From contig BDLO01000001.1 in the NCBI GenBank assembly GCA_001950395.1, forward strand, positions 1,649,979 to 1,713,978: a stretch of 64,000 nucleotides of DNA, read 5' to 3'. Positions 14,415-63,551 of this stretch are shown here, in pieces. The number at the start of each line of letters is the position of its first letter. The stretch's first letter is position 1. The notes beneath the pieces were generated by a model, which was not told the DNA's origin, did not search any database, and saw nothing but the letters and a program-made list of their open reading frames with translations. Position numbers and translations under genes: made by a program. This stretch comes from Coriobacteriaceae bacterium EMTCatB1 (lineage in GTDB: Bacteria > Actinomycetota > Coriobacteriia > Anaerosomatales > Anaerosomataceae).

Positions 14415-14562
14415 CACTCCTCCGTTTGGCGAGAAGTGTGACGGGGAACACAGAATTGTTAGAGTTGGACCGTTGAGAGGCGCAGAGCAAAGTTCCGAGG
14501 GAGACGTCTGAGCGCATCGCCGACCACACGGTCACCATGTGGCGAGCGCGAGTCAATGGTGA
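14415..14562 (+). other. Intergenic region after lon, structured-looking, unassigned
   Basis: This ~150-bp stretch between lon and its distal terminator contains inverted arms (for example CCACA and TGTGG around 14525-14542). It resembles a structured RNA leader or trailer more than plain spacer. I compared it by eye with c-di-GMP-I, c-di-GMP-II and c-di-AMP riboswitch hallmarks and none fits. It could be the lon 3' UTR or a small RNA ending at the adjacent terminator. Confidence 0.3.
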
Positions 14563-14595
14563 GACCGGCCCTGATCAGGGGCCGGTCTTTGTTTT
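14563..14595 (+). terminator. Rho-independent terminator between lon and the LPFTG gene
   Basis: Nine-base perfect arms (GACCGGCCC and GGGCCGGTC) are followed directly by TTTGTTTT. It lies about 150 bp after the lon stop and 60 bp before the surface-protein start. It shows that the surface-protein gene cannot begin at an upstream in-frame ATG, which would be inside this hairpin. Confidence 0.85.
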
Positions 14596-14654
14596 CTGCG
14601 ACAACGTGCGGGTCGCTGCGGAGTAAGCGATACGGGAGGGAAGAGGTGGTCGCG

Positions 14655-17600
14655 ATGATGCACTGGAGAAAGGACGGCGGAGGGGTCGGTCGGGCGTTCT
14701 CGGCCCTGCTTGCCGTCTTGCTGGCCGTCGCGATGGTGAGCCCAGCGATCGTCGTGTACGCCGACGACGTCGCAGGCGAGCCACCGTCTGTGGAATCGAC
14801 GGGCCCGCCTGAAGCGGTCGCGGAACCCGCGCCTGCTGAGGCGGTCCCAGTCGTGGAGCCCGGCGCCCCAGACGAGGCGGTCGTCGAACCGAGCAGCCCC
14901 GACGTCGTGGAGGGGCCGGTCGTCTCGACCGACGTGCCACCTGCGAGCCCGAAAACGGCCCCAGTAGCGGCCGCTCCGGCGCCGCTCGCCGACGCCGCCC
15001 CTGTCGATATCGCATATGCGGATGTGGGCTCCGTCGAATTCGAAGGCTGGGACAGAACCCCCCACCCGAAGTGGAACAACGGACAAGTCAGCGGCTACGT
15101 CGAAGGCGAATGGATCGCCTTCCGCCTCACGATCGACAACAAGCAGGGCTCGGGACCGGTCCAAGTTCCTTCGATGGTCTACAAGGTCGACCACAAGTCT
15201 GGCAGCGCCGTGGCGATGGACGCCACCAAGGGCTGGCGCTGGGAGATAGAGGGCGGCGCGTCAGGGACATACCTACCGACCGTCCAGGATTCCGACTCGG
15301 ATCCGATGTATCTGAGGACAGAGCTCCCTGAAGCGAGCGGATTCGTCATTCCGAAGGGCAAGAAGGGTTTCATCTACTTCGAAGGGCACCTGGCGATCAG
15401 CCAATACTGGGCTCCGCTGGCTGGAGCTTCCGGTTATCCGGGTGCTAGCGCACAGGCCCGGCTCGTCGAGTGGAACGGTTCCAACATCGGTGACAGGACC
15501 GTCCCGTTCGTGGTGGGGCCATCCGTTACGCCTACTGGGCAAGTGTGCGGTCTCAAGTTCGAGGACAAGAACGGAAACGGCAGCCAAGACGCAGGCGAAG
15601 GACCGCTGAGCGGCTTCGTGTTCCACCTGCGCTACCTCGAGCCAGGTTTTGAGTTCACGGTCGACGCCACGTCGGCTGTGGACGGCAAGTTCTGCTTCAC
15701 CGGCTTGCCTGCGGGCTCCTACGAGCTCACAGAGGATGAGAGACCTGGATACGTCCAGACCACGGTTATCCCGAATCCAATCACGGTCGGTGCGGGTACG
15801 GGCTCTTCCTCTTCGGCGACGGCGTCTGGTGCTGACTGCACGCCCACGAGTCCCATCAAAGTCGGCAACAAGCGACCGGACGTCACCAAGACCTTCTCGC
15901 TCGCGGTGACCTCCGAGATGCCCGCGGCCGACGGCTACTTCGTCCGCTACACGATCGGCGAGACGACCGCCGACCTCGCGCTCGCGCCTTCTTCGGCGCC
16001 CGGCGTGTACGAGGCGAGCGTCGTCCTGCCCTACGGCACCACGATAACCTCGTGGCGGTTCTACGCGCGCGCAGGCTCCGAGGAGGTGCCGCTCTCTAGC
16101 GTCCTCGGCCCTGAGACGCTCACCGGGCCGCTCACCAACGCCTGGCAGCACGACCCCGGCTCGATCTCGGGCCACAAGTACATCGACACCGACGGCGACG
16201 GCCAAGGCGACGCGCCCGGCGCGGGCTGGCTCATCAAGATGTTCCGCGCAGGCGTCTTCTACGGCCAGACCACGACGGCCGAGGACGGCTCGTACAGCTT
16301 CACCGGCCTGCTCCCTGGCTCCTACACGGTGGAGGAGGCCGAGCAGGACGAGTACCTGAGGGTCTGGCCTGAAGGGCCGGCGCTCGGGCCGTATGTGATC
16401 GGCTCCGGCACCGCCATCGAAGGCGCCGACTTCGTCAACCAGCAGCGCCCGGGCGGCATCGAGGTCGTCAAGTCCGTCGTGCCGCAGGTCGCCCACGTCG
16501 GTGATACGCTCACCTACACCATCGACGTGCGCAACACGGGCGAGATCGCGGTCTTGCTCACCACGGTGACCGACCCGCTGTTCTACGACGGCGCGAACCT
16601 GCTCGCGCAGCCGGTGCTGCTCGCGCCTGATCAGGCGCTTTCCGACCTCGGCAAGCAGATCGTGCTTGCGATCCCGGCGCCTGACGCCGACGCCGTGCAC
16701 AACACCGCCTACGCGGAGGGCCAGACCTCCTTCGGCACCGTCTCCGACACAGACGACGCCGACGTCGCCATCCTGCGGCCGGGCCTTGACGTGGCCAAGA
16801 CGGCCGAGCCTGCATCCGTGACCGACTCGGGCGAGGTCACCTACCGCGTGACGGTCACCAACACCGGCAACGCCACACTCACCGTGGACGTGGTCGACTA
16901 CGTGGAGGGCGAGGTCAGGCATACGCTCGACACCGGGCTCGTGCTCGGCCCCGGCGAGCACAAGGACTACGAGTGGACCGAGACGGTGAGCGAGCCCACG
17001 CGCGACGTGGCGGTCGCCACCGGCACCGACGCCCTGGGCGGCGAGGTGCAAGCCGAGGACGACGCCTCCGTGGCGGTCTCCCTCACCAAGACCTTCTCGC
17101 TCACGGTGACCTCAGAGATGCCCGCGGCCGACGGCTACTTCGTCCGCTACACGATCGGCGAGACGACCGCCGACCTCGCGCTCGCGCCCTCCGCGGCGCC
17201 AGGCGTGTACGAGGCGAGCGTCGTCCTGCCCTATGGCACCACGATAACCTCGTGGCGGTTCTACGCGCGCGCAGGCTCCGAGGAGGTGCCGCTCTCTAGC
17301 GTCCTCGGCCCTGAGACGCTCACCGGGCCGCTCACCAACGCCTGGCAGCACGACCCCGGCTCGATCTCGGGCCACAAGTACGAGGACGTCGACGGCGATG
17401 GCTCGTGGGGCGAGGGCGAGAACGGACTGGCTGGCTGGACGATTCGCCTGTACAGGCGCGCGATCCAGATGCCGGTCGATGCCATGACGCCGCTCGTGCT
17501 GCCGTACGCATGGGTGCTCGTAGGCGAGGCCACGACGGCCGAGGACGGCTCGTACAGCTTCACCGGCCTGCTTCCGGGCACGTATCGAGTCGAAGAGGTC

Positions 17601-18776
17601 GAGCAACCCGGCTGGACGATGACCGATGCGCCCGACGACGAGCTTCTCGTGGACAGCGGCACCGCGATAGACGATGCCGACTTCGGCAACCACAAGATTG
17701 TCTACACGAAGACCTTTGACCTCACGTTCGACGCAGCGCCGCCGGACGCCACGTTCTTTGTGCGCTTCACGCTCAACGGGGCGCCGATGGAGCTGGCGCT
17801 CGAAGGATCTGGCCCGTACAGCGGCTCCGTGGACGTCGAGTATCCGTACGAGATCGGCGAGGTGTCGTGGTGGGCGGTGAAGGACGGCGAGGAGATCCTG
17901 CTCGGCGTCACTGAGGGCGAGGTCCTCGAAGGCGACATCACGAACTCCTTCACCTACACCGCAAGCGTCTCCGGCCACAAGTTCTCCGACGACGACGGAA
18001 ACGGCGCGTGGGACAAGCCGGACGAGGTCGGTCTGCCCGGCTGGACGATCGGTTTGTACCGCGAGTCGGCCGGCGGCGGCATGCAGCCGGCAGCGCTTCC
18101 TGAGGCAGCCCCTGGGTTCGTGCTCTACGACAGCACCGTGACTGGCGAAGGCGGCGCGTACGCCTTCGACGGACTGCTTCCCGGCACGTACTATGTGGCC
18201 GAGGAGCAGCAGGACGGCTGGATGCAGACCGCAGCTCCTGAGGGAACGTTCGTCGTGACGAACGGCTCTGCGATCTCGGATCTGGACTTCGGCAACCAGG
18301 AGGAGTTCCTGCCGTTCACTGACACGGAGATCGTCAAGCGTGCCGACAAGTCCGTGGCCGATCCGGGCGACCTGGTCACCTACACGCTCACGTACTCGAA
18401 CATCGGCGGCGGCGTCATCGACTCCGTCCGAATCGTCGACGACTACGATGAGCGCTACATGACGCCGGTCGACACCGCTGGCGGCGCTGTGGTGGACGGC
18501 ACGCTTGTCTGGATCGACACCGCGCCGCTCGGGCCTGGAGAGACGAGAACCATCACCTACACGATGCGCATCTCCTCCGAGATGCCCGAGGGCACCACGA
18601 CCATCCGCAACGTCGCCGTCATCAACCCTGGCGACCACGAGTCTGCGTGGAGCGTCCGGGTCACGACCGAGGAGCCGTTCCTGCCCTTCACGGGTGGCGG
18701 CGTGACGCTGATCGTCCTGGCGGTGGCGCTCGCAACAGCTCTCGGCGTTGCGATCAGAAGGAAGGCCCGGGAGTAG
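14655..18776 (+). CDS. LPxTG-anchored surface protein with SdrD B-type and DUF11-like repeats
   Basis: This 1373-residue protein is predicted to be covalently attached to the cell wall. It has a signal peptide (about 1-37), a Pro/Val/Glu-rich linker (about 40-115) with several Pro-Pro pairs, then alternating modules. SdrD B/prealbumin-like units carry calcium-loop patterns such as DTDGDGQGD and DDDGNGAWD and a GLLPGTY signature. DUF11-like beta domains carry VGDTLTYTIDVRNTG. The C-terminus has LPFTG (1343-1347), a hydrophobic helix and RRKARE, the complete sorting signal. An internal LPFTD at about 1219 is a near-copy. The ATG at 14655 has GAGG eight bases upstream. A sortase gene lies 0.9 kb downstream. 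The role is probably adhesion; the ligand is unknown. Confidence 0.9.
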   Translation: MMHWRKDGGGVGRAFSALLAVLLAVAMVSPAIVVYADDVAGEPPSVESTGPPEAVAEPAPAEAVPVVEPGAPDEAVVEPSSPDVVEGPVVSTDVPPASPKTAPVAAAPAPLADAAPVDIAYADVGSVEFEGWDRTPHPKWNNGQVSGYVEGEWIAFRLTIDNKQGSGPVQVPSMVYKVDHKSGSAVAMDATKGWRWEIEGGASGTYLPTVQDSDSDPMYLRTELPEASGFVIPKGKKGFIYFEGHLAISQYWAPLAGASGYPGASAQARLVEWNGSNIGDRTVPFVVGPSVTPTGQVCGLKFEDKNGNGSQDAGEGPLSGFVFHLRYLEPGFEFTVDATSAVDGKFCFTGLPAGSYELTEDERPGYVQTTVIPNPITVGAGTGSSSSATASGADCTPTSPIKVGNKRPDVTKTFSLAVTSEMPAADGYFVRYTIGETTADLALAPSSAPGVYEASVVLPYGTTITSWRFYARAGSEEVPLSSVLGPETLTGPLTNAWQHDPGSISGHKYIDTDGDGQGDAPGAGWLIKMFRAGVFYGQTTTAEDGSYSFTGLLPGSYTVEEAEQDEYLRVWPEGPALGPYVIGSGTAIEGADFVNQQRPGGIEVVKSVVPQVAHVGDTLTYTIDVRNTGEIAVLLTTVTDPLFYDGANLLAQPVLLAPDQALSDLGKQIVLAIPAPDADAVHNTAYAEGQTSFGTVSDTDDADVAILRPGLDVAKTAEPASVTDSGEVTYRVTVTNTGNATLTVDVVDYVEGEVRHTLDTGLVLGPGEHKDYEWTETVSEPTRDVAVATGTDALGGEVQAEDDASVAVSLTKTFSLTVTSEMPAADGYFVRYTIGETTADLALAPSAAPGVYEASVVLPYGTTITSWRFYARAGSEEVPLSSVLGPETLTGPLTNAWQHDPGSISGHKYEDVDGDGSWGEGENGLAGWTIRLYRRAIQMPVDAMTPLVLPYAWVLVGEATTAEDGSYSFTGLLPGTYRVEEVEQPGWTMTDAPDDELLVDSGTAIDDADFGNHKIVYTKTFDLTFDAAPPDATFFVRFTLNGAPMELALEGSGPYSGSVDVEYPYEIGEVSWWAVKDGEEILLGVTEGEVLEGDITNSFTYTASVSGHKFSDDDGNGAWDKPDEVGLPGWTIGLYRESAGGGMQPAALPEAAPGFVLYDSTVTGEGGAYAFDGLLPGTYYVAEEQQDGWMQTAAPEGTFVVTNGSAISDLDFGNQEEFLPFTDTEIVKRADKSVADPGDLVTYTLTYSNIGGGVIDSVRIVDDYDERYMTPVDTAGGAVVDGTLVWIDTAPLGPGETRTITYTMRISSEMPEGTTTIRNVAVINPGDHESAWSVRVTTEEPFLPFTGGGVTLIVLAVALATALGVAIRRKARE
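15884..16180 (+). repeat. Near-identical ~297-bp coding repeat, copy 1
   Basis: This segment encodes one beta domain of the surface protein (from TKTFSLAVTSEMPAADGYF to SISGHKY). It is almost base-for-base the same as the segment 1200 bp downstream, with only a few synonymous or conservative differences. Conservation at the DNA level points to recent duplication or gene conversion. Confidence 0.9.
17084..17380 (+). repeat. Near-identical ~297-bp coding repeat, copy 2
   Basis: This is the second copy of the domain-encoding repeat, offset by exactly 1200 bp (400 codons) from the first, so recombination between copies would stay in frame and remove or add 400 residues. A shorter shared stretch (encoding TTAEDGSYSFTGLLPG) also recurs near 16270 and 17531. 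Confidence 0.9.
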
Positions 18777-18802
18777 GGGCAGGCGCAATCGCGCCTAAGG
18801 AA

Positions 18803-18828
18803 GCGGGGGCCGCGTGTGCGGCCCCCGC
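18803..18828. terminator. Bidirectional terminator between convergent genes
   Basis: Eleven-base perfect arms GCGGGGGCCGC/GCGGCCCCCGC flank a four-base loop, followed by a pyrimidine-rich stretch. A smaller hairpin (AGGCGC/GCGCCT at 18781-18796) precedes it. It lies between the ends of the surface-protein gene and the convergent HEVWH gene. Confidence 0.8.
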
Positions 18829-18851
18829 TCTCGTCTCTCTTCGCGCGGTTC

Positions 18852-19430
18852 CTACCGCGGCGGGACGTTCTCGCCCCAGTCGATCCGGCCGTTGTCGCGC
18901 CAGTCGATGATGTGCCAGACCTCGTGGTTGAGGATGCGGGAAAGGCTCGCGGTGTGGTTCGGGTTGATGACGATGCGACCGGACTTGTAGTAGCAGATCG
19001 CCTGGTAGCCCTTCGTGTCACCGAAGCTCACTGTCGTTCCTTTGAGGATCGGGTACTTGGCGATCAGCCCGGCGAGTATCCGGCGGGCCTCGGCGAGCTC
19101 GTCGCCGGAGGAGGTGGCGGGCCGCGTGCTCGCCGTCTTCGGCTTCGCCGTCGTCGGTGCGGAAGCCGTCCGCTTGGGTGTCGCCGTACCGCTCGGCTGC
19201 GGAGCCGCCACCGGCGTGAGCTGCTTCTGCGTGGCAGCGGGAACGAGCGTCGCATCCTCGAACGTCACCGCCGGGACTGCAGGCTGAACGGCCTCGATGA
19301 CCGTTCCGACCGCGAGGCGGGCGGACGCGTCATCACCCGGAAGGACCGCTACCGCGGCTGCGACGAGAGTCACTGCGGCGACCGCCAGCAGCGTCGCGAG
19401 CCTGGTGCGGCTCGTCAGTGTCTTCTTCAT
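18852..19430 (-). CDS. Secreted putative zinc metallopeptidase (HEVWH), riboswitch-controlled
   Basis: This 192-residue protein has a basic N-terminus and one hydrophobic helix (about 8-30; signal or anchor), then a Thr/Pro/Ala/Lys-rich linker (about 65-105) and a compact C-terminal domain of ~80 residues. The domain carries RILNHEVWHIIDW, a clear HExxH zinc-protease motif, followed by downstream acidic residues (IDWGE) that could supply a third ligand. The domain is short for a protease and I cannot name the family. The ATG at 19430 was chosen because the longer frame would run through the riboswitch. Its gene faces the LPFTG surface protein and is divergent from the sortase. Confidence 0.75.
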   Translation of the reverse strand: MKKTLTSRTRLATLLAVAAVTLVAAAVAVLPGDDASARLAVGTVIEAVQPAVPAVTFEDATLVPAATQKQLTPVAAPQPSGTATPKRTASAPTTAKPKTASTRPATSSGDELAEARRILAGLIAKYPILKGTTVSFGDTKGYQAICYYKSGRIVINPNHTASLSRILNHEVWHIIDWRDNGRIDWGENVPPR

Positions 19431-19463
19431 CTCGAACGCCCCTTTTCGAGCCAGAGCGCGAAA

Positions 19464-19507
19464 CCGGCCCGAACCCCCCGAGAAGGCCTCTTGAGGGTTC
19501 GGGCCGG
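19464..19507 (-). promoter_or_regulatory. Long hairpin between riboswitch and gene (probable expression platform)
   Basis: Thirteen-base perfect arms (CCGGCCCGAACCC and its complement, 19464-19476 and 19495-19507) lie between the riboswitch aptamer and the HEVWH start codon. The transcript after the hairpin reads only TTTC before a mixed sequence, so a classical terminator is possible but weak. It is the most likely element to be rearranged when ligand binds. Confidence 0.55.
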
Positions 19508-19518
19508 CGTTCGTGCCA

Positions 19519-19616
19519 GCGCTCTGCCTCGGCAGCCCGGCTGTCGTGGGAGGTCGCCCTCCTGTAGACCCGTGGCTTTGCGTCGTCCGCCTTTCGGCGG
19601 AGGTGCCTTTTTCGGG
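19519..19616 (-). promoter_or_regulatory. Cyclic-di-GMP-I (GEMM) riboswitch aptamer
   Basis: On the minus strand the region shows the GEMM-I hallmarks in order: GGCACC, a hairpin CCGCC-GAAA-GGCGG with the GNRA tetraloop, then GACGCAAAGCCACGGGTCTA, a variable GGAGG...CCTCC arm, and GACAGCCGGGCTGCCGA. The GACGCAAAGCC joining segment, the GAAA tetraloop and the GCCGGG-x-TGCCG segment are the conserved core of this class. It ends about 90 bases before the HEVWH protease-like gene. The 3' part can also form CTGC-CGAG-GCAG, a possible alternative pairing with the closing stem. ON or OFF behaviour cannot be decided by eye. Confidence 0.88.
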
Positions 19617-19696
19617 GTTCGCCCGGTATTCGCTTCTCAATCGCCGTACACTTGCAGTATCGGCACCGGCGATGCCGCGCTTTAGCGAGGACAGGG

Positions 19697-20398
19697 ATGA
19701 AACGAGGGCCAAGTGTGCGTTCAACGACGGAGCCGGAGGTGACCCGGCTCAGACCCTCACGAAGGGTCTTCGTGGCTCGTCTCGCAAGCAACTGTCTGTT
19801 CGGGATCGCCCTCGGCCTCGTGGCGTACTACGGAGTGACTGACGCGCTCGCAGCGCGCTCACAGCAGTTGCTTCGAGCCGAGGCGCCTCGCATGGCGGCA
19901 GCGACCGTGGCCGACGAGGGCGCAACCGCGTTCGATTTCAGCGCCTGGGACAAAGACAAGGTCTACTGGGCCTCGCTGGGATCCGGTGAGCCATTCGGCC
20001 GGATCGCGTGCGAGGCGATCGGGCTGGATGCCGTGGTGGTGAAAGGCGTCGCACCGCGCGACCTCGTGCGCGGGCCTGGCTGGGCGCCGTACACGGACGT
20101 GCCGGGGCCACAGGGCAACTGCGGCATCTCTGGCCATCGCACCACGTACGGCGCTCCGTTCCGTCGTCTCGACAAGCTCAAGGCAGGTGACGTTGTGACA
20201 TTGGTGGGTCTGTACACGACGTTCAGGTACGAGGTCGAGCGCGTGTTCGTCGTCCGGCCCGAACAGGTCGAGGTCTTCGCGACAACGGAGGAGCCTTCGC
20301 TCACGCTCACAGCATGCCATCCTCCGTACAGCGCGCGGTACAGGATCGTCGTTCGTGCGAAGATGGTGGCGGCGGCACCCAATGAGCAAGACGAGTGA
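19697..20398 (+). CDS. Class E-like sortase
   Basis: This 233-residue transpeptidase has an N-terminal membrane helix (about 22-43) and an extracytoplasmic sortase fold. The catalytic His is in CGISGHRTTYGAPF, the catalytic Cys in LTLTACHP and the Arg in YSARYRIVVRA. TLTACHP and the GHRTTYG context match actinobacterial class E-like enzymes. The ATG at 19697 has GAGG six bases upstream. It is the natural candidate to attach the LPFTG protein at 14.7 kb. Class E sortases often prefer LAxTG, so substrate pairing is an inference from proximity. It is followed at 10 bp by an epimerase gene. Confidence 0.9.
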   Translation: MKRGPSVRSTTEPEVTRLRPSRRVFVARLASNCLFGIALGLVAYYGVTDALAARSQQLLRAEAPRMAAATVADEGATAFDFSAWDKDKVYWASLGSGEPFGRIACEAIGLDAVVVKGVAPRDLVRGPGWAPYTDVPGPQGNCGISGHRTTYGAPFRRLDKLKAGDVVTLVGLYTTFRYEVERVFVVRPEQVEVFATTEEPSLTLTACHPPYSARYRIVVRAKMVAAAPNEQDE

Positions 20399-62184: not shown

Positions 62185-63551
62185 GCGAGCGCATGTACGA
62201 CCGCCACGATTTCCACGACTTCCTGCTCGAGTCATGGCTCGAGCTGCACGAGCTTCTCGCGGAGCATCCGGAAGTCAAGCGGCTGCTGTTCGACCCTGTG
62301 ACGGGCTTGCCGACCACGCCGCTTCTGTTCCCGCGCATCGAGTCGCTCCTCGAGGAGCGCGGGGAGATCTCGCTTCTGTGCCTGAACGTCGTCAAGTACT
62401 CGAAGATCGAGGAGATCTACGGCTGGAAGGTCTTCGACGAGGTGATGCGCGAGGTCGCAGGCGCGCTCGAGCGCATCACCGGCACCGAGCTGCGCGACTC
62501 CGACATCGTTGCAGAGCTCATGGTGTCCGGGAACGCATTCGTTGTCCTGCTCTCACCGCCGCGGACGACCCCGCACATGGACCGTGAGGCGCTGATGAAG
62601 CTGGCCCGACGCGTCGAGGAGAGAGTGAGGCGCGAGCTCAAGGCCGTGCTCGATCCTGCGCTCTACGTGAAGTTCGGCTGCTACGTGGGAGCTGCCAGCG
62701 TGCGTCGCGACCCGAAGCTTCGCATGGAGCGGTTGGTCCACGACGCGCTCGACCGCGCTTTGGCGCAAGCAGACGCGCGCGAAGCGCAGGACGCCGAGGA
62801 GCGCGGACGGCGGCTGAAGGAGATCATCGACACGGGAGCCGTCCGAACGCTCGTGCATCCGCTCGTGCGGCTCGATGACCTCTCGGTGAAGGGCTACGAG
62901 GCCCTGTCTCGAGGCCCGGAAGCGACGGAGTTCGAGCGGCCCGACAAGCTGTTCAAGGCAGCATACGATTCGGACATGGTCGTGCGGCTGGAGCGGCTGT
63001 GCCGCAAGCGGGCGCTCGAAGCGGCGAAGGGGCTGCCGCAGGGTCGGCTGATGTTCATCAACGTGGAGCCGGAGGCCGTGGCCGACCCGGAGCTTCGCGA
63101 GGTGGTGTTCGCATCCCTTCTCGCTGAGGCGGGACTGAAACCCGAGCACATCGTCCTCGAGATCACCGAGCGTACGGCCATCAGCGACTTTTGCGCGTTC
63201 CGCTCCACCATCGAGTACCTGCGGATGCTGGGGTTCTCCATCGCGATCGACGACGCCGGCGCCGGGTACGGCTCGCTCCAGTGCCTTGCGGAAGTGCGGC
63301 CCGAGTGGGTGAAGATCGACATGTCGCTGGTGCGCGGCGTGGATTCGGACGACGTCCGCCGCCAGCTCATCGAGAGCATGCATTCCTTTGCGGAGAAGGT
63401 GGGAGTGAATCTCGTCGCCGAGGGCATCGAGACGGAAGAGGAGCTCGCAGTGCTCCGGGACATCGGCGTCGAGTACGGCCAGGGCTTCCTGTTCGGGCGG
63501 CCTGCGGACCCATTCCCGGCAGACGACGAGATCGCGTCGAGCCTCCGGTAG
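62181..63551 (+). CDS. EAL-domain c-di-GMP phosphodiesterase with degenerate GGDEF-like domain
   Basis: This 456-residue cytoplasmic protein has a degenerate GGDEF-like domain (about 35-195; FDPVTGLPTTPLLFPRIE, but ELMVSGNAFVVLL where GGDEF belongs). An EAL domain follows (about 205-445). Expected catalytic elements are kept: EAL as YEALSRG, FINVEPEAV, LEITERT, IDDAGAGYGSLQ, VKIDMSLV, VAEGIETEEE and GQGFLFGRP. It should therefore hydrolyse c-di-GMP. Loop 6 reads DDAGAG rather than DDFGTG. The GTG start overlaps the glycoside-hydrolase stop. It is the only c-di-GMP enzyme in the window and pairs in theme with the riboswitch at 19.5 kb. Confidence 0.92.
   Translation: MSERMYDRHDFHDFLLESWLELHELLAEHPEVKRLLFDPVTGLPTTPLLFPRIESLLEERGEISLLCLNVVKYSKIEEIYGWKVFDEVMREVAGALERITGTELRDSDIVAELMVSGNAFVVLLSPPRTTPHMDREALMKLARRVEERVRRELKAVLDPALYVKFGCYVGAASVRRDPKLRMERLVHDALDRALAQADAREAQDAEERGRRLKEIIDTGAVRTLVHPLVRLDDLSVKGYEALSRGPEATEFERPDKLFKAAYDSDMVVRLERLCRKRALEAAKGLPQGRLMFINVEPEAVADPELREVVFASLLAEAGLKPEHIVLEITERTAISDFCAFRSTIEYLRMLGFSIAIDDAGAGYGSLQCLAEVRPEWVKIDMSLVRGVDSDDVRRQLIESMHSFAEKVGVNLVAEGIETEEELAVLRDIGVEYGQGFLFGRPADPFPADDEIASSLR

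Follow-up and report, generated by a model that had tools for sequence, protein, structure and literature searches.

Organization of the locus

The window analysed here is a stretch of 64,000 nucleotides (G000:C1:1649979-1713978) of a closed 1.84 Mb genome, and the named relatives carrying the same locus are uncultured Coriobacteriia/Anaerosomatales. As read from its sequence, the locus comprises an adhesin gene and an adjoining gene for a small secreted putative protease, each preceded by its own c-di-GMP-type riboswitch (Table 1), c-di-GMP being a signal in the choice between sticking and swimming. An initial annotation had proposed a GEMM-I riboswitch, a secreted HEVWH protein, an LPFTG surface protein and a sortase, and all four were recovered in place. 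It had a single riboswitch; the class II aptamer before the adhesin gene is the second of the locus. At the level of sequence, each of the two genes carries an aptamer of a different c-di-GMP riboswitch class, the classes being unrelated to one another. The adhesin is of the sortase-anchored type and the HExxH protein is secreted; with them go a divergent sortase and a sigma-28-type promoter on the protease, and there is conservation throughout the order.

Table 1. Features of the cassette, in coordinates of the window
Feature	Position	Strand	Basis
c-di-GMP-II-GAG aptamer before the adhesin	14491..14577	+	RF03169 44.9 bits, gathering 40
Intrinsic terminator with arms GAGACCGGCCCT (5') and GGGGCCGGTCTT (3') and a U-rich tract after them	14561..14596	+	Sequence
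Secreted sortase-anchored adhesin, 1373 aa	14655..18776	+	SdrD_B and DUF11 repeats, LPFTG tail
Internal LPFTD (EEFLPFTDTE), some 150 aa before the C-terminus; candidate site of processing	18309..18323	+	Conservation
LPFTG cell-wall sorting motif (EPFLPFTGG)	18681..18695	+	Sequence
Secreted putative metalloprotease, 192 aa, undescribed family (ATG 19430, stop 18852)	18852..19430	-	36-member alignment; minigluzincin-like model
HEVWH (HExxHxxD) motif	18912..18926	-	H, E, H and following D invariant in 36 members
Protease Shine-Dalgarno AGGGG, predicted to be sequestered by helix P0	19439..19443	-	Pairing and folds
Long hairpin between class I aptamer and RBS, without U-tract	19444..19526	-	Sequence and fold
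Class I c-di-GMP aptamer in the protease leader	19527..19616	-	RF03167 62.8 bits, RF01051 69.2 bits
Anti-SD (5') strand of helix P0, which overlaps the P1 5' strand	19614..19625	-	Covariation, 32 leaders
Promoter before the protease, sigma-28 (FliA/WhiG) type: TAAA-N16-GCCGATA	19658..19684	-	Pattern and conservation
Sortase closest to class E, divergent to the protease gene	19697..20398	+	PF04203 E 6.5e-29

The adhesin has an N-terminus rich in E, P and V, followed by SdrD_B/DUF11-type repeats and a C-terminal LPFTG-hydrophobic-basic tail. The sortase is only nearest to class E, its score with the class E model NF033747 (99.9 bits) lying under the curated cut-off of 160.

Matches to RF03167 occur in 50 and matches to RF03169 in 46 of 61 relatives. 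Convergent class I and class II aptamers lie 2.5-8.1 kb apart in 26 of the 61 genomes, and no pair in any other orientation was found within 12 kb. At the pair loci that were read, the class I aptamer precedes a gene of the HExxH family and the class II aptamer a gene for an LPFTG protein. In nearly all of these loci, a TLTACHP-type motif of the divergent sortase occurs 744-899 bases upstream of the protease aptamer; the sortase of genome G051 was missed by this pattern and seen by eye. The gene order Lon-adhesin-protease-sortase-epimerase-DnaK is kept broadly, with its flanks present in most relatives. The four elements of the initial annotation are thus co-conserved, though synteny extends to Lon and DnaK at the flanks. 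Because the Lon, epimerase and DnaK flanks travel with the cassette, its linkage may be inherited synteny, and the arrangement amounts to an inherited syntenic block rather than repeated independent association. For the same reason, co-conservation alone proves no interaction between the gene products.

A newly recognized element is the conserved sigma-28-type promoter upstream of the protease aptamer. In 36/36 protease loci read, the class I aptamer is preceded at 37-48 nt by [GA]CCGATA, which itself has a TAAA-like element 15-16 nt before it. The exact pattern has one match in the window against 0.01 expected by chance, and four sites in the genome against none for the reversed control. Of the other three sites, one precedes a pilin-like reading frame, one a small secreted protein and one a sensor histidine kinase. 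A FliA/WhiG sigma factor is encoded in the genome (284.9 bits, cut-off 189.6), and no flagellin was found in the closed genome. From these patterns, the protease appears to be part of a small sigma-28-type regulon.

The class I leader of the protease gene

The covariance check on the protease leader gives the canonical model RF01051 a score well above its gathering threshold of 35, which agrees with the riboswitch of the initial annotation. The c-di-GMP-I-GGC model RF03167 also exceeds its gathering threshold of 59 (E 1.8e-12). This is the single class I match in the whole 1.84 Mb genome searched. Membership of the GGC variant, whose consensus has G at position 47, was rejected, since this aptamer carries A as in canonical c-di-GMP-I. 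Judged by its sequence, the protease aptamer is better filed as canonical class I than as a GGC variant. The pocket base G20 is present in every class I aptamer read, and A47 in all but one, which a simple pattern did not parse.

No U-tract terminator was found 3' of the class I aptamer at this locus or in most other loci, and a transcription terminator was dropped as the class I platform. Instead, the Shine-Dalgarno region pairs with a strand that adjoins P1 and shares bases with its 5' strand, forming the helix termed P0. Among 32 leaders, pairing of each strand with its own RBS is stronger than with swapped partners (duplex energy -16.4 vs -13.6 kcal/mol, p<5e-5). At six positions outside the Shine-Dalgarno sequence, own partners form 158/192 pairs against a swapped mean of 139 and maximum of 153 (p<5e-5), with the register re-optimized for each swapped partner; kinship among the leaders inflates both swap statistics somewhat. 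A fixed-register count is confounded by registers that differ between leaders, and Shine-Dalgarno accessibility with the aptamer masked is biased towards ON; the latter was replaced by the partner-swap tests. Compensatory changes are found in the helix, A-U, G-C, U-A and C-G all occurring at one position.

P0 is part of the minimum-energy fold of 30/33 class I leaders, where it excludes P1. As the two helices share bases, a P1 stabilized by ligand should free the Shine-Dalgarno sequence. This covarying, RBS-hiding helix is new, and it predicts from modelled folds that the class I leader acts as a translational ON switch, although a riboswitch sign derived from folds may be wrong. In these folds, opening the Shine-Dalgarno sequence with P1 closed costs 5-15 kcal/mol (median 10), so the ligand would need to act co-transcriptionally.

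The class II-GAG leader of the adhesin gene

The genome contains two RF03169 matches, one at this locus and one at 1041980. The adhesin aptamer has C37/G69/U40/A68 in place of U37/A69/G40/C68, and the GAG signature (G69, A70, G73) appears as GAGACCG in the adhesin-linked aptamers. Positions 37, 40, 68 and 69 lie at or beside ligand contacts in the solved class II structure (PMC7288161). Of the class II aptamers, one set of 43 carries C37/G69/A68, and the other 10 are canonical, having U37/A69/G40/C68. In the same genomes, GAG aptamers precede surface proteins and canonical AAG aptamers cytochromes; genes for multihaem cytochromes (10-38 CxxCH motifs) lie downstream of 10/10 canonical AAG aptamers sampled.

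The 5' arm of the terminator, GAGACCGGCCC, sits within the aptamer, in its ligand site and P1 strand; at the adhesin leader the terminator arm amounts to 12 bp. The same design is found in 37/52 class II leaders scanned, most adhesin-linked GAG leaders among them. Terminator and ligand-bound aptamer are mutually exclusive, and ligand should therefore turn the adhesin ON. This arrangement is likewise new, and the RNA structure it implies predicts an ON switch for the class II-GAG leader.

The literature searched, which did not include the original description of the variant riboswitches, gives no ligand for c-di-GMP-II-GAG. In our judgement, a G69-C37 pair could still dock guanine, and c-di-GMP is thus the likely ligand. 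The genome has 12 GGDEF and 2 EAL domain matches, and the GxxxGD substrate motif is retained in those GGDEF domains that are clearly intact. A Hypr (cGAMP-type) signature was found in none of these intact domains, and a Hypr GGDEF enzyme was rejected as a source of cGAMP.

A family of small putative metalloproteases

The HEVWH protein has an N-terminal hydrophobic segment and belongs to a family of which 36 members align over 96 residues. H73, E74, H77, D80, G85, W89, G90, E91 and P94 are invariant in all of them, and only 19 residues follow HExxH in the window protein. In a scan of 84,980 species genomes, 42 loci of the family were found, nearly all titled as Coriobacteriia or unspecified Actinobacteria. 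Two are titled Slackia and Aeromicrobium; these are MAG labels, and the contigs match genomes of the present order.

No credible family match was obtained in Pfam, NCBIfam or PDB sequences. When the 36-member profile was compared with all PDB sequences, no PPEP chain appeared at E<=10 and the best match was unrelated. Membership of the PPEP-1 family was rejected on this search and on the lack of a Pfam match: the protease is no sequence relative of the PPEP-1 of Clostridioides difficile.

In the AlphaFold model of the protease domain (mean pLDDT 85, pTM 0.75), a helix is followed by three strands and the HExxH helix, as in a minimal zincin. Foldseek ranks selecase, jannalysin and abylysin highest (probability up to 1.00, best E 7.6e-3, TM about 0.5-0.56), with VIA-align Z scores of 5.4-6.7 for the three. 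Anthrax lethal factor is a weak structural match only. PPEP-like folds are absent among the structural matches listed, which excludes nothing. The zinc-protease type assumed for this domain thus gains from a zincin-like modelled fold and an invariant HExxH; the model is suggestive of a minimal zincin, with E91 or D80 as candidates for the third zinc ligand.

The Pro-Pro pairs in the N-terminal linker of the adhesin had been put forward as possible cleavage sites. As a conserved target they were rejected: adhesins at the same position have 0-12 such pairs and two have none. An internal LPFT-type motif is kept in most adhesins of the window adhesin's family. EEFLPFT[DE] was nevertheless rejected as a universal cleavage site, being frequent in that family and missing from most other families. 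No cleavage motif is universal among the same-position adhesins compared.

Proposed mechanism and alternative explanations

The best explanation of the locus is a surface-protein cassette under cyclic-dinucleotide control, in which adhesin and protease would be induced jointly and the protease would act on the neighbouring adhesin; we hold the arguments for and against this reading to be about evenly balanced. With a rise in ligand, which is most probably c-di-GMP, the terminator would be blocked by the class II-GAG aptamer and the adhesin would be transcribed. The class I aptamer would close P1, its 5' strand would leave the Shine-Dalgarno sequence and the protease would be translated. As the protease would be made only where a FliA/WhiG-type sigma factor is active, the promoter and the riboswitch would form an AND gate. 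Less certainly, the substrate of the minimal-zincin protease may be the adhesin encoded beside it, proximity being the one basis for this step; acting at the cell surface, the protease might process this adhesin or shed it from attached cells in which the sigma-28 programme comes on. The attachment/release switch of the initial annotation is thus only partly supported: its parts and their conservation hold, Pro-Pro sites are not conserved, and against simple release the platforms predict ON/ON instead of inverse control.

An inverse switch as in C. difficile would have high c-di-GMP turn the adhesin ON and the protease OFF, a fall in c-di-GMP then letting the protease release the cells. The pairing of riboswitch classes with protease and adhesin is the same as there (PMC6447587), and a sigma-28-type promoter would suit a motile state with low c-di-GMP. 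Against this reading, no U-tract terminator follows the class I aptamer at the locus, and the covarying P0 hides the RBS while P1 is open, leaving ligand able only to expose it; we regard inverse control as rather unlikely. Doubtful to a similar degree is the idea of two signals, with the class I aptamer (G20/A47) sensing c-di-GMP and the GAG variant another ligand. It would account for the joint alteration of the three ligand-contact positions 37, 68 and 69 in GAG aptamers and for the division of the sampled leaders between surface proteins and multihaem cytochromes in the same genomes. However, the changes keep pairing (U37-A69 to C37-G69, G40-C68 to U40-A68) and docking of guanine is still feasible, the division may reflect vertical inheritance of paralogous leaders, and no cGAMP-type GGDEF was recognized in the genome.

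The protease, sortase and adhesin genes could also be neighbours that do not interact, separately regulated by c-di-GMP and held together by synteny, with the protease acting on some other substrate. The broadly kept gene order would be expected under this explanation, two genomes (G030 and G051) have the protease but no adjoining LPFTG gene, and other sigma-28-type sites precede a pilin-like gene and others. It fits less well with the distribution of the leaders, a class II-GAG match being absent from 8/15 genomes without the protease against 7/46 of the others (Fisher p 0.006, kinship ignored), nor does it sit easily with G051, where both the adhesin of the locus and P0 have been lost. Neighbours without interaction are quite possible, though we lean against them. 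An inactive protein that serves in binding or scaffolding, its zincin fold being a relict, could be suspected from the shortness of the HExxH protein, the few residues after its motif, its uncertain third zinc ligand and the modest best Foldseek E value; with H, E, H, the next D and the WGE glutamate invariant in 36 members, and with minigluzincin-type metallopeptidases and zymogens as the top structural matches, such a protein is improbable.

The locus is of use in several ways. One is a new family of very small putative metalloproteases, with a natural candidate substrate adjoining; another is about 30 natural class I leaders with a covarying RBS-occluding helix. It also offers a test bed for c-di-GMP-II-GAG, with canonical class II RNAs before multihaem cytochromes in the same genome.

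Comparison with known systems

The aptamers of the locus exceed all three curated cut-offs of the Rfam families RF01051, RF03167 and RF03169. With FliA/SigD (sigma-28) promoters, the protease promoter shares TAAA-N15/16-GCCGATA, and a sigma factor of the FliA/WhiG family is present, in a genome without flagellin. The minigluzincins (proabylysin, projannalysin and selecase) have a zincin fold of about 100 residues with the same order of elements as the HEVWH model. The HEVWH family differs from them in having no detectable sequence kinship, in its signal and linker, and in a C-terminal WGExxP motif; the known minigluzincins are archaeal, whereas this family comes from Coriobacteriia.

C. difficile, with its PPEP-1 circuit, is the textbook example of a bacterium that cuts off its adhesins in response to a second messenger. 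In that species, the secreted metalloprotease PPEP-1 is under a class I riboswitch and the adjoining sortase-anchored CD2831 under a class II riboswitch (PMC6447587, PMC11477304). PPEP-1 (Zmp1/CD2830) with CD2831/CD3246 shows the same pairing as the present locus, class I on the protease and class II on the anchored adhesin. The parallel drawn by the initial annotation is therefore made closer by the class II aptamer on the adhesin and weakened by the predicted ON/ON control, and the likeness is real at the level of logic, in the parts and the probable purpose. PPEP-1 and CD2831 are inversely controlled, whereas the window cassette is predicted to respond with the same sign; the class I platform is a transcriptional OFF switch in C. 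difficile and a predicted translational ON switch here. The cassette further differs in its sigma-28-type promoter, its GAG-variant class II aptamer, its convergent genes with a divergent sortase, its phylum, its unrelated protease and its adhesins lacking conserved Pro-Pro sites. We tentatively propose, as a possibility short of an expectation, that C. difficile and an order of Coriobacteriia independently built the same device with unrelated proteases, here wired as ON/ON, gated by sigma-28 and fitted with the GAG variant. If this rewired device is real, the locus would be of help in finding which ligand the GAG variant binds, and a second version with an unrelated tiny protease and other wiring would make such cutting of adhesins a recurrent solution.

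The other class II riboswitch of the genome is of the canonical AAG type and lies upstream of a gene for a multihaem cytochrome with 33 CxxCH motifs. The same association was found for all ten AAG aptamers read in related genomes. This arrangement makes second-messenger control of extracellular electron transfer a candidate function. The protein with a degenerate GGDEF domain and an EAL domain encoded near the window end is likely a c-di-GMP phosphodiesterase.

Most adhesins of the window's family carry a second FLPFT[DE] motif N-terminal to the last DUF11 repeat, which is therefore bracketed by two LPFT motifs. At L091 and L094, loci of the relatives G044 and G052, a tandem pair of GAG class II aptamers, spaced by roughly 0.6 kb, precedes a single adhesin.

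A CRP/FNR-like palindrome, TGTGACG-N5-CACA, is located near both cassette promoters, and many related genomes also have palindromes of this type upstream of the promoters of the sortase and the protease. Besides the protease promoter, the genome has only three sigma-28-type sites; no flagellin was found in it.

Coordinates of the features
Feature	Location	Strand	Remark
CRP/FNR-like palindrome	window 14436-14452		
Second FLPFT[DE] motif	window 18309-18323		
Degenerate GGDEF + EAL protein	window 62289-63503	+	
AAG class II riboswitch	G000:C1:1041980-1042066 (loci L002, L111)		
Sigma-28-type site	locus L225, near 3772	-	pilin-like gene downstream
Sigma-28-type site	locus L226, near 1151	+	small secreted protein downstream
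Sigma-28-type site	locus L227, near 4063	-	sensor histidine kinase downstream

In the relative G048 (L093), the protease is duplicated in tandem, with one class I aptamer per copy. The class I aptamer L100 of G013, a genome in which no protease-family member was found, stands at the start of a secreted protein of 842 aa. L107-L110 are compact class I aptamers of 75 nt that precede genes for unrelated secreted proteins. Their 3' ends lie 8-9 nt from the start codon, and P1 may therefore overlap the RBS. Unlike the protease leaders, these aptamers may thus follow an OFF design.
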